NCBI RefSeq assembly: GCF_000013225.1
Contig: NC_007776.1
Coordinates: forward strand, 329,277 to 393,276
Length of the DNA: 64,000 nucleotides
Direction: 5' to 3'
From: Synechococcus sp. JA-2-3B'a(2-13)
GTDB lineage: Bacteria; Cyanobacteriota; Cyanobacteriia; Thermostichales; Thermostichaceae
Shown here: positions 40,583-52,049 of the stretch, piece by piece
Position numbering within the stretch: the first letter of the stretch is position 1
Layout: every line of letters begins with the position of its first letter
The notes under the pieces: model-generated
What the model saw: the letters and a program-made list of their open reading frames with translations, nothing else
Told to the model about the DNA's origin: nothing
The model's database searches: none
Position numbers and translations under genes: made by a program

Positions 40583-41944
40583 GTGCAACGACTTCAAGCC
40601 TTCAAGTACGAATTGCTGCCCAACAGCCAGCAGGAACGGCAGATGCGCCGCTTTGCTGGCTCCTGCCGGTTCGTCTACAACAAAGCACTGGCGTTGCAGA
40701 AGGAGCGTCACGAGCAAGGCCAGAAAAAGCTAGGCTATGCGGGCTTGTGCCAGCTGCTCACCGCGTGGCGCCACAGCGCAGATACGGCGTGGCTGGCGGA
40801 TGCGCCGGTGCATCCGCTGCAACAGGCGCTCCAGGATTTGGAGCGAGCCCACAGCCACTTCTTCGCCCAGCGCGCCGGCTTCCCGAAGTTCAAGAAAAAA
40901 GGCCGGTCGGACAGTTTCCGTTATCCCGACCCCAAGCAAATCCAGCTGGACCAGGCCAACAGCCGCATCTTTCTGCCCAAACTTGGCTGGCTGCGTTATC
41001 GCAACAGCCGCGACGTGGTGGGCAAGGTCAAGAACGTCACCGTATCCAAGCACGCTGGCAAGTGGTTCGTGTCGATCCAGACCGAGCAGGAGGTTAATTG
41101 GCCTATTCCGCAGGGGGGCGCAGTGGGCATGGACATGGGCATTGCCCGCTTGGCTACCCTCTCGGACGGCACGTTCTACGCGCCCCTCAACAGCTTCAAG
41201 CGGCACGAGGCGCGCTTGCGCAAGGCCCAGCAAGCGCTCTCCCGCAAAGTCAAGTTCAGCAACAACTGGAAGAAGGCAAAAGCCCGCCTCCAGCGTATTC
41301 ATTCTCAGATGGCCAACGCCCGCCGCGACTTCCTGCACAAGGTCTCGACCGCGATTAGCAAAAGCCAGGCAATCGTGTGCATCGAGGACTTGCGGGTGCG
41401 GAATATGTCCAAGTTGGCGGCAGGGACGGCAGATGCTCCTGGGAAGAACGTCCGCGCCAAGTCAGCGTTAAACAAAGCCATTCTCGACCAGGGGTGGTAT
41501 GAGTTCCGCTGCATGCTGGAGTACAAGCTGGCCTGGAAAGGCGGCAGGCTCATTGTCGTGCCGCCGCAGAACCCGAGCCGCACCTGTCCATGTTGCGGCC
41601 ATGTTTCATCAGACAACCGCCAGACCCAAGCCTGGTTCGAGTGCGTGGCGTGCGGCTATGAGAATAACGCCGATCGCGGCAGCGGGCCGGAGGCCTTTCG
41701 CGGCAGCGGGCCGGAGGCCTTTCGCGGCAGCGGGCCGGAGGCCTTTCTGGTCGGTGCCATCAACATCCTTGCTCGCGGGATACAGCTGTTGCGAGACGAA
41801 GGGCAGGACACGGCCGACGCTGCGGTCGGGATGCGGGTGGATCAACCACCCGTGTCAGCCCGGATGGCCTGTGGATCGAACTGCACGGGCGGTCGGAAGC
41901 AGGAACCCGCCGAGACGACTGCGCAAGGAGCCATCCATGCGTAG
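40583..41944 (+). CDS. tnpB: TnpB with three in-frame octapeptide repeats
   Basis: A 453-residue TnpB starting at GTG (MQRLQAFKYELLPNSQQERQ). RuvC residues: Asp184 (VGMDMGIARL), Glu268 (VCIEDLRV) and Asp364 (NNAD). The zinc ribbon uses Cys335/338 (CPCC) and Cys354/357 (CVAC). Directly after Asp364 come three exact copies of RGSGPEAF (residues 365-388), and then the normal LVGAINILARG resumes. Removing these 24 residues restores the usual NADLVGAINILARG motif. The 41-residue tail carries Cys and Gly but no known motif. Activity is doubtful because the repeats lie beside the catalytic Asp. Confidence 0.9.
   Translation: MQRLQAFKYELLPNSQQERQMRRFAGSCRFVYNKALALQKERHEQGQKKLGYAGLCQLLTAWRHSADTAWLADAPVHPLQQALQDLERAHSHFFAQRAGFPKFKKKGRSDSFRYPDPKQIQLDQANSRIFLPKLGWLRYRNSRDVVGKVKNVTVSKHAGKWFVSIQTEQEVNWPIPQGGAVGMDMGIARLATLSDGTFYAPLNSFKRHEARLRKAQQALSRKVKFSNNWKKAKARLQRIHSQMANARRDFLHKVSTAISKSQAIVCIEDLRVRNMSKLAAGTADAPGKNVRAKSALNKAILDQGWYEFRCMLEYKLAWKGGRLIVVPPQNPSRTCPCCGHVSSDNRQTQAWFECVACGYENNADRGSGPEAFRGSGPEAFRGSGPEAFLVGAINILARGIQLLRDEGQDTADAAVGMRVDQPPVSARMACGSNCTGGRKQEPAETTAQGAIHA
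41675..41746 (+). repeat. Three tandem 24-bp repeats inside tnpB
   Basis: Three exact copies of CGCGGCAGCGGGCCGGAGGC plus CTTT (24 bases, 8 codons) at 41675-41698, 41699-41722 and 41723-41746. The unit belongs to the dispersed GC-rich repeat family. Confidence 0.97.
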
Positions 41945-49527: not shown

Positions 49528-50133
49528 ATGTCAGCCGCCTTCTCTTGGCCCTACCGCACCCCAGGGATCCCAGACTCTGCCTTTGAACGCATCCCAGGGA
49601 TCCCGATGAGCCCTCGTGAGGTGCGCGTGTTGGTGCTAAGCCAGTTGCGCCTGGGAGAGAACCACTGCCTGTGGGATATCGGCGCCGGAACCGGCACAAT
49701 TGCCATTGAAGCGGCTGTTCTATGCCCCAAAGCTCGCGTGATTGCCATCGAGCGAGATGCCGAGGTAGTCAGCCTAATCGAGAGCAATTGCGAGAAATTT
49801 GGCCTCACCAACGTGCAGGTGATTCAAGGTACTGCCCCCGATTGTCTGCAACACCTTTCTCCGGCACCGGATCGCATCTGCATTGAGGGAGGCCACCCCC
49901 TACGCGAGATCTTGGAAGCCTGCTGGAGCCATCTCAGCCCCAACGGGCGGGTCGTGGCGACGACCAACTCTTTGGATGGGCTCTACGGCCTTTCTGCCGG
50001 CCTGGCCGCTGTGCGGGCTCATCATGTGGAGGTGATTCAATCGGCGGTGAACCGCCTGGAACACCGCGGTCGGACTCAAATGCTGCTGGCACTGGATCCC
50101 ACCTTTGTTTTGAGCGGAGAAAAAATGGGCTAA
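49528..50133 (+). CDS. cbiT: Precorrin-6Y C5,15-methyltransferase, decarboxylating subunit (CbiT)
   Basis: A 201-residue SAM-dependent enzyme of anaerobic cobalamin synthesis, combining C15 methylation with decarboxylation of the C12 acetate. The SAM-binding motif is LWDIGAGTGTIAIEAAVLCP (from about residue 48). The family pattern runs from GIPDSAFERIPGIPMSPREV to RICIEGGHPLREILEACW and LDGLYGLSAGLAAVR. It stands alone in the window; cobU, another cobalamin gene, is about 3 kb away. Confidence 0.94.
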   Translation: MSAAFSWPYRTPGIPDSAFERIPGIPMSPREVRVLVLSQLRLGENHCLWDIGAGTGTIAIEAAVLCPKARVIAIERDAEVVSLIESNCEKFGLTNVQVIQGTAPDCLQHLSPAPDRICIEGGHPLREILEACWSHLSPNGRVVATTNSLDGLYGLSAGLAAVRAHHVEVIQSAVNRLEHRGRTQMLLALDPTFVLSGEKMG

Positions 50134-50330
50134 GTTTTGTGTAAACTGTTTACATTTTTTGGTAAATCTTTTCCTAAGGTGATGGATAAAAGTGGATTGA
50201 TTTATCTCGGCTGTCTTAGAACCAGCAGAAAAGATTGGGTCACCCAAACCTTAAGCTATACTGATATTTCTCGATCCCAAACTCAAATCTGCTTTTATAC
50301 CAGATAAGAGAGCTGGGAAACCCAATAGCT

Positions 50331-50549
50331 ATGGATCAATTCCAACACCCCTTTCAGGAGTCACGGGAAGTCAAACTGCGGCAACTGTTGATTCGGGAGC
50401 GCTGGCCGGAAATGCTGAAAGGCTGCCGGGCTTGCATCCATTGGGACGACTTCAAGCGACCGGAATGCTGTGGTGATTGCGGCATCGGGGATCGACGCAG
50501 GCAAGCAGTAGCCGAAGAAAGCCCACCCAGCAAGTCCCCAGGCATTTAG
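50331..50549 (+). CDS. Small cysteine-rich protein
   Basis: A 72-residue protein (MDQFQHPFQESREVKLRQLL then IRERWPEMLKGCRACIHWDD and FKRPECCGDCGIGDRRRQ). The five cysteines in CRAC-x9-CCGDC form a likely metal or Fe-S site. The N-terminal 30 residues are amphipathic and helical. No named family can be given. A possible weak terminator palindrome (GTAAACTGTTTAC then T-rich) lies in the preceding gap, near 50151-50165. Confidence 0.6.
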   Translation: MDQFQHPFQESREVKLRQLLIRERWPEMLKGCRACIHWDDFKRPECCGDCGIGDRRRQAVAEESPPSKSPGI

Positions 50550-51166
50550 GGTTCGCAAGCTTCCCAAATTGGGATCCCAGCTCCTGCAGTAACTTTGGTA
50601 GTTTCTATTGAGAACTTTTACTCAGGGAGTTTTACCTAAAAACCGGGTCTCAAGCCCGGTCTTCATACCTGCCTGCGGCGGAAGCAAGCTGGCAAAGTGG
50701 GGAGGCAACGAGCGCCTCTCCCAAGATTGCTATGTCGTCGCTCCCTAGCCTCTCATCTTGCCCTCATTGGCCCCCTGCTTCCGCTTCTCAGAGGCAGCTC
50801 CCCAGCAACCTCAAGGGGGGCAGGAGGATCCATATCAATTTCTACACCAACCCAGTTAGCGACAGGGTCGGCGACAAGCCTCAAACCCTGATTCTTCCGT
50901 TGACCCGGTCGATCCCGCTCTGGGCAAGGGTTTCAGGCCCCTCGGCGGAGAAAAATAAGGGGAAATTGCAGCCGTTCGCGCCAGCGGGACGGAGTCCTTA
51001 AACGAGACCCTGTCGATCTAGGCCCCTGGATCCCGCTCTGGACAAGGGTTTCAGGCCCCTCGGCGGAGAAAAATAAGGGGAAATTGCAGCCGTTCGCGCC
51101 AGCGGGACGGAGTCCTTAAACGAGACCCTGTCGATCTAGGCCCCTGGATCCCGCTCTGGACAAGGG
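50550..51166. other. 617-base intergenic region with tandem repeat
   Basis: No gene is supported. It contains a hairpin (ACCGGG-N7-CCCGGT type) near 50641-50660 and two 118-bp tandem repeats plus a fragment (50911-51168). It also has further members of the dispersed GC-rich family. A 64-codon open frame (50697-50891) shows no protein features and is rejected. Confidence 0.6.
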
Positions 51167-51168
51167 TT
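50911..51168. repeat. 118-bp tandem repeat, 2.2 copies
   Basis: Units at 50911-51028 and 51029-51146, then the first ~22 bases of a third ending at menG (51147-51168). The copies are almost identical (one or two base changes, for example TGGGCAAGG against TGGACAAGG). Each unit begins GATCCCGCTCTGG, contains a hairpin-forming CCCCTCGGCGG...AGGGG and one dispersed GC-rich repeat (CGTTCGCGCCAGCGGGACGG plus AGTCCTT), and ends GGCCCCTG. The third fragment includes part of the menG stop codon. Confidence 0.95.
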
Positions 51169-51943
51169 ATAATCGGGGAGAGTCGCTTCCCTTCGGGGAA
51201 GTGGAATTAATGGAATTAATGGAAACAATACGAAACTTCTCAATCACCAGTACCCCCATCATGCCCCACGCTAGGGGGTAGAACTTGGCACTGGCAAACC
51301 CTGCCTGCAGGGCCATTTGTCGTTGCTCTTCTCCAGAGGGAAAGCGATCTAGGCTGGGATCAATGTAGGCATATTCGGATCCCAGTCCCAAAGTTTTGGC
51401 CTGGGCGACCACCTGAGTGTTCAAGTACCAGCGCTGAAATTGTTCGCAAAGAGGGATCCCTGTGGGGCGGTGAAAATCCAAAATGGCGGCACGACGTCCT
51501 GGCTTCAGTACTCGCCTAATCTCTCGCAAGGCTTGGGGAATATCGGTTACATTGCGCAAGCCGTAGCCCATGGTAATGGCATCGAAGCTACTGTCGGGAA
51601 AAGGTAAGGCCAAGGCATCTCCCAAAACCCACTCCAGGGAGTAGCCAGGGAAGAGCCGGGAGCGACGCCGGGCAATCGCCAGCATGGCGGGAGAGAAATC
51701 TAGGCCCACCACATGTCCCCTTCGTCCTACTCGGCGGGCCAACTGCAGAGCCAGATCACCGGTTCCACAGCACAGATCCAGCACATATCCTCCTGAGCTG
51801 GCGCCCGACCAACGCACGGCCATACGCTTCCAAACCTGATGGAGGCCCAGGCTCAAGGTTTGGTTGAGGGAGTCATAGTGGGGAGCAATGCGGTCAAAAA
51901 GCGCTCGGATTTCCTCAGGCTGTTCAAAGGTTGGGCTAGGCAC
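51167..51943 (-). CDS. menG: Phylloquinone/menaquinone methyltransferase (MenG/UbiE type)
   Basis: A 258-residue SAM-dependent methyltransferase of the UbiE family, which in cyanobacteria methylates 2-phytyl-1,4-naphthoquinone to phylloquinone, the photosystem I quinone. The SAM motif is VLDLCCGTGDLALQLARRV. Family blocks are FDRIAPHYDSLNQTLSLGLH, FDAITMGYGLRNVTDIPQAL and KTLGLGSEYAYIDPSLDRFP. The last ~20 residues (INSTSPKGSDSPRL) are an unusual tail, and the stop lies at the border of the 118-bp repeat, so the tail may have been reshaped by repeat expansion. Confidence 0.93.
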   Translation of the reverse strand: MPSPTFEQPEEIRALFDRIAPHYDSLNQTLSLGLHQVWKRMAVRWSGASSGGYVLDLCCGTGDLALQLARRVGRRGHVVGLDFSPAMLAIARRRSRLFPGYSLEWVLGDALALPFPDSSFDAITMGYGLRNVTDIPQALREIRRVLKPGRRAAILDFHRPTGIPLCEQFQRWYLNTQVVAQAKTLGLGSEYAYIDPSLDRFPSGEEQRQMALQAGFASAKFYPLAWGMMGVLVIEKFRIVSINSINSTSPKGSDSPRL

Positions 51944-52049
51944 CTCTTCTCAACTCCACCTCATGTTCCCCGTACAAACTTTGTTGCTCCTGTTGCTCCG
52001 CAACGCTACGTGACCGGATCTGTGGTCTGAAGCTAAAGGAAGAGGGGTG

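Follow-up and report, generated by a model that had tools for sequence, protein, structure and literature searches.

A tandem repeat at the end of menG in Synechococcus sp. JA-2-3B'a(2-13) reads as a doubled part of a CRISPR leader, with a MenG tail probably acquired by chromosomal exchange

CRISPR arrays of the Synechococcus strains OS-A and OS-B', some of them located away from cas genes, were described by Heidelberg et al. 2009 (PMC2612747), together with a syntenic site at which one repeat is left. Table 1 of that paper holds six OS-B' arrays with repeats of types I and II; the repeat and leader at the end of menG are absent from it, no array is placed there at these positions, and the word "leader" does not appear in the main text. 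Within the bounds of that published table, the locus described below adds a repeat family and its leader to those on record for this strain, a hot-spring cyanobacterium.

Rearrangements associated with CRISPR have been reported earlier. In Thermotoga, large CRISPR-associated inversions were reportedly found by DeBoy and colleagues in 2006; the likeness to our locus lies in a chromosome rearrangement bounded by CRISPR sequence, whereas at menG a relic CRISPR is involved, with a break inside a coding sequence, which the relic now terminates. A second point of comparison is type III-D CRISPR-Cas, the gene set of which stands behind a further copy of the same leader and repeat at 591 kb, the menG site being without a spacer. 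Small dispersed repeats of cyanobacteria, on which Elhai and co-workers are said to have reported, are a candidate likeness for a GC-rich family of ~25 bp that has dozens of copies, one of them in the leader unit. A literature search by title, in one library, found no paper describing a CRISPR relic at a menG end, and it is unusual for a gene to take its last residues and its stop codon from the repeat and leader of a CRISPR.

The window, i.e., the whole stretch of 64,000 nucleotides that was analysed, belongs to a genome of one contig (C1; 3,046,682 bp). Very probably, the tandem array beside menG (Table 1) is the doubled leader part of a decayed CRISPR locus, and the MenG tail came from a chromosomal exchange. 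An earlier note on this DNA had described two near-perfect 118-bp units and a truncated third ending in the menG stop codon; tandem-repeat detection with TRF agrees, there is a single mismatch between the units, and the third copy ends within the stop because the minus-strand stop codon occupies 51167-51169. Exact self-matches in an 800-bp stretch reach 126 bp, and none above 10 bp arose in 40 mononucleotide shuffles of that stretch; the array is thus non-random, far beyond chance. The unit also contains the member of a dispersed GC-rich family that had been proposed, as 44 of its 49 matches in the own genome are short and fall at unit positions ~57-99; from sequence comparison, this family behaves like a tiny mobile repeat. 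The hairpin ascribed to the unit is unexceptional, with a 118-nt fold of z = +0.86 and 157 of 200 shuffles folding equally well or better; when folds were compared with 200 shuffles, the significant hairpin was that of the CRISPR repeat, just outside the array. The sole Rfam match in 50100-52000, to mir-1910, fell short of the gathering score (27.8 bits, where 70 is required) and was taken as chance.

Table 1. Features at the menG end, in positions of the window
Feature	Position	Strand	Remarks
Remnant: 3' end of vanW-like gene and DNA behind it	50704..50825	+	Same context as before the 591-kb leader; common to G004 contigs C71 and C23
Upstream block of CRISPR leader	50826..50910	+	Matches the 2471-kb and 591-kb leaders and two G004 leaders
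Tandem array	50911-51168	+	TRF: period 118, 2.2 copies, 99% matches
Leader interval, array unit 1	50911..51028	+	TRF and unit comparison
GC-rich family member in unit 1	50972..51002	+	Second copy in unit 2, 51090-51120
Leader interval, array unit 2 (extra copy)	51029..51146	+	Differs from unit 1 only at unit position 14
22-bp direct repeat, last copy	51147..51168	+	Partial third unit; repeat-proximal end of leader
Leader TATAAT	51168..51173	+	Overlaps menG stop codon
Single CRISPR repeat, 36 nt plus 9-nt internal duplication	51182..51226	+	Antisense gives MenG residues 240-254, VSINSINSTSPKGSD
Junction filler, 10 bp	51227..51236	.	Gives FRI and third base of the preceding lysine codon
menG	51167..51943	-	258 aa; homology to relatives from 51237; residues 237-258 new

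The 36-nt repeat that follows the array, GTCGCTTCCCTTCGGGGAAGTGGAATTAATGGAAAC, was found in 7 of 96 genomes (own genome counted, up to 3 mismatches) in a comparison set of one genome per species. At the same tolerance, one same-genus relative (G005) has 134 matches, 133 of them on one strand, with a spacing of 71-78 bp (about 72) among the matches listed, up to C19:52963; a stricter core finds 111 copies at 70-84 bp, save for one gap of 1102 bp at which the copies end GGAAAA. A further genome, G041, has 38 matches, including 33 exact-check copies in an array that Cas1 and Cas10 adjoin; beside the G005 array, the one flank present on the contig gave no cas match in the three ORFs tested. The repeat is a partial palindrome whose consensus folds as a hairpin (z = -3.5, 0 of 200 shuffles as good), the menG copy reaching z = -2.4 (6 of 200). 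By these marks, namely spaced arrays in relatives, cas adjacency in G041, and the hairpin, the 36-nt sequence is a CRISPR repeat. Near-identical, regularly spaced repeats with unique spacers are found in G005 and G041 and not at menG, where a single repeat stands with no spacer; an array takes two or more repeats with a spacer. We treat the menG site as a relic rather than an array because there is just one repeat.

Elsewhere in the genome, the 118-bp unit occurs at C1:591227 and C1:2471359, in one copy each; these two and menG unit 1 are identical, unit 2 being the one that deviates. The same order is found at each locus: a common block of ~85 bp, the unit, a 22-bp copy, TATAATCGG, and a copy of the 36-nt repeat. 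In our leader alignment, the sequence preceding the repeat is homologous at these three loci, at two loci of the closest relative (G004, a draft MAG with a MenG match of 95%), in G002, and in G006 and G007, both of other genera; leader homology spans three genera. A leader is expected to stand immediately before the first repeat and to be conserved, among several loci as well as in relatives; the alignment shows just this, and by it the 118-bp unit is a duplicated part of a leader. The occurrence of the same block in three dispersed copies would also be explained if a MITE-like transposable element with a 118-bp unit had inserted at the menG end, an account to which we give almost no credence: the copies run on into the CRISPR repeat, the leader has homology with other genera, and the flanks were exchanged (see below), not just parted by an insertion. 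Moreover, terminal inverted repeats, the mark of a MITE or insertion sequence, were not found around the unit, the only inverted pair in 50500-51300 lying outside it.

In its long form, the leader has an interval of 96 bp between two 22-bp direct repeats. G006 and G007 carry this long form, with two diverged 22-mers, because of which it is probably old; the idea that the unit is an insertion new to the present strain was rejected on the same ground. In G004, the interval is missing from both leaders (0 and 0 units), and the present genome has one unit at each of two leader loci (591 kb and 2471 kb) and two at menG. Unit number thus differs between copies, as in a variable tandem repeat, and the lability predicted in the earlier note is borne out between loci and between species (0,0 versus 1,1,2). 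These counts mark the 22-mers as the site of both loss and gain, and 22-bp direct repeats flanking the interval are long enough for slippage or unequal exchange.

MenG itself has a complete domain of the MenG/UbiE methyltransferase family. NF001244 covers residues 5-236 at 314.9 bits (cut-off 216; profile positions 3-235 of 236), and PF01209 also matches; the menG product has a role in making a vitamin-K-like molecule. Of the 22 new residues beyond the domain, 18 come from the filler and the CRISPR repeat, which lie outside the array, and four from the leader end: the 45-nt repeat, read antisense, gives exactly 15 codons, and the 15 nt that follow it, from the leader end, encode SPRL and the stop. 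In five of five same-genus relatives, MenG ends 0 to 14 residues past the same point, each differently. The combination of a constant copy number with the same MenG tail in all relatives, which the earlier note had named as its own refutation, was looked for and not seen. Being outside the family domain and not conserved, the new tail is probably a neutral patch, and its strangeness would be explained without invoking function.

The origin of this tail is traced by comparison with G004, in which contig C13 has the grxD side joined to an intact menG with no CRISPR between (the names grxD and menB were assigned by eye from translations). The flanks that meet there within 2 bp stand at ~2,471,185 and 380,513 in the present genome. 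Here menG breaks off at about residue 236, and its severed last codons lie beside grxD, 2.09 Mb away, where they can be read as ENLSAQPREKCRAC plus stop, matching KNPSVWPWGECQAG plus stop in G004. Since the severed menG tail adjoins grxD in the present genome, the G004-like menG-grxD order is the older. The earlier note had suggested that the terminal residues SPKGSDSPRL may stem from a change in unit number; a slippage-prone minisatellite that extended or frameshifted menG in this way would fit an array that terminates within the menG stop codon and a unit number that varies by locus and species. Yet 18 of the 22 residues derive from outside the array, and the former menG end is still to be found elsewhere in the genome. 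That severed end refutes a slippage origin of the tail, and we regard the minisatellite account as exceedingly improbable; the tail is instead read as CRISPR repeat plus leader end on a menG cut by exchange.

The other partner of the exchange can also be followed. The DNA flanking the menG array on the left (hereafter X; 4.8 kb, 88.6% versus G004 contig C23) is continued on C23 by a leader, one repeat, and tilS. In the present genome, X leads to menG, and tilS stands behind the 2471-kb leader, the partners being swapped with respect to G004; two adjacencies were exchanged, and leader plus repeat are present at each new junction. The 591-kb locus keeps its order in G004 (vanW-like gene, leader, repeat, type III-D genes), and the vanW-like remnant beside the menG array matches it at 86.5% over 371 aligned columns, leader included. 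Apart from small gaps and the ends of contigs, ~20 kb of aligned flanks around the two junctions showed no further break. Junctions that coincide with repeats invite the suspicion that the present genome was misjoined there, but we consider an assembly error very unlikely: tail, filler, and repeat form a single open frame, unique DNA lies directly beside the repeat at each junction, the entire array is only 258 bp, and a comparable CRISPR-derived TilS end is found in an independent genome.

How the leader would have reached both junctions is less direct. The 2471-kb leader is identical to the 591-kb leader at 105 of 106 positions and to the menG leader at 100 of 106, and the two junctions are in the same orientation. 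Owing to this shared orientation, one inversion is insufficient and more rearrangements must be assumed; a lone crossover between two loci does not account for everything either, given the leader similarities. The 2471-kb leader is separated from the severed menG tail by 88 bp (C1 ~2471186-2471273) for which comparison with the loci examined gave no match >17 bp except their own copies. In the terminal repeats at menG and at tilS, the repeat end is partially duplicated, a shared feature suggestive of a tilS-side CRISPR end as the source of the menG junction.

We infer the following order of events. The repeat family, which forms real arrays in related cyanobacteria, would have decayed in the present strain to leader-plus-repeat relics and solo repeats; in the ancestor the menG end adjoined grxD. 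An exchange would then have severed menG after ~codon 236 and fused the remaining gene with the trailing end of a relic of leader plus repeat that had X as its left flank, with the other half, i.e., the old last codons of menG and grxD, being joined to another leader copy leading to tilS. Translation of menG now passes antisense through the repeat for 15 codons and through the leader end for four, stopping inside the leader TATAAT. Unequal exchange or slippage between the 22-bp repeats may have removed the interval in G004 and added the second unit at menG. As the agent of the exchange, recombination or break repair among the near-identical leader and repeat copies is probable. Relic CRISPR DNA at a chromosome break could in this manner become coding sequence, in a case where the severed gene end is recovered 2.09 Mb away; the locus also offers concrete junctions for following recombination at CRISPR leaders in mat populations.

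With a 30-nt part of the repeat as query and up to 3 mismatches, seven repeat copies were counted in the own genome: at menG, at 591 kb, three at 2471-2474 kb, and solo copies at 574,996 and 1,692,612; an eighth, more diverged, lies at ~592.15 kb. Behind the 591-kb leader and repeat, PADLOC and NCBIfam identify Csx10, Csm2, several Csm3-like proteins, Cas10, Cas6, and a CARF protein; this copy thus has the Cas10, Csx10, Csm2, and Csm3-like genes adjoining a repeat that characterize type III-D, and its Cas10 carries a GGDD motif. At C1:591385-592180, the first and last repeats of a lost array remain, ~765 bp apart, and between them is a stretch of 43% GC with a 167-aa ORF without PADLOC match.

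The junction might conceivably act as a cis-acting self-guide: the leader would transcribe the repeat and then antisense menG, and an RNA cut by Cas6 at the repeat would serve the type III-D complex as a crRNA-like guide that fully matches the menG message. In type III systems, pairing with the repeat-derived tag marks "self". The menG mRNA would pair with that tag because the menG frame runs through the repeat, and, if this were true, the III-D complex could cut menG mRNA without raising alarm; taken with the solo repeat before groES (see below), it would mean that a decayed CRISPR family was re-used in gene control. The orientation (leader, repeat, antisense menG) fits such a guide, the repeat hairpin is intact, and Cas10 with its GGDD motif, Cas6, and effector genes are present in the genome. 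Against this, a scan of 50550-51400 for sigma-70 promoters and terminators found no full consensus promoter and no terminator, the menG repeat bears the 9-nt duplication, and the arrangement is seen in one strain only. We give this function a slim chance.

Several further observations concern the dispersed copies. At the 2471-kb locus (C1 ~2471548-2474049; L031:7549-10050), a 2.5-kb insert of 42% GC, with flanks of 58-59%, lies between CRISPR repeats; in addition to an ACR3 arsenite efflux gene and an arsC-like gene, it holds a fragment whose secretion tail is of Bacteroidetes type, and it looks like foreign arsenic-resistance DNA inside a CRISPR array. At the end of TilS (L031:10161-10173), the codons for VCFH and the stop come from the end of a CRISPR repeat, in G004 too.

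The solo repeat at C1:574996 follows immediately upon the menB stop codon, and seven of the eight relatives searched align only from the repeat end onward; it therefore marks a synteny break. The other solo repeat, at C1:1692612 on the minus strand, sits between a CIRCE element and groES, where it replaces ~37 bp relative to G004 with length unchanged and gives the groESL leader a hairpin of Cas6 type; five of five same-genus relatives have unrelated DNA at this site. As for the GC-rich family, a copy precedes the 591-kb leader, G004 contig C71 being without a copy there, and the family reads as SGTES when it lies in proteins. A perfect 24-bp tandem repeat of 3.1 copies at 41674-41747 of the window resembles this GC-rich family.
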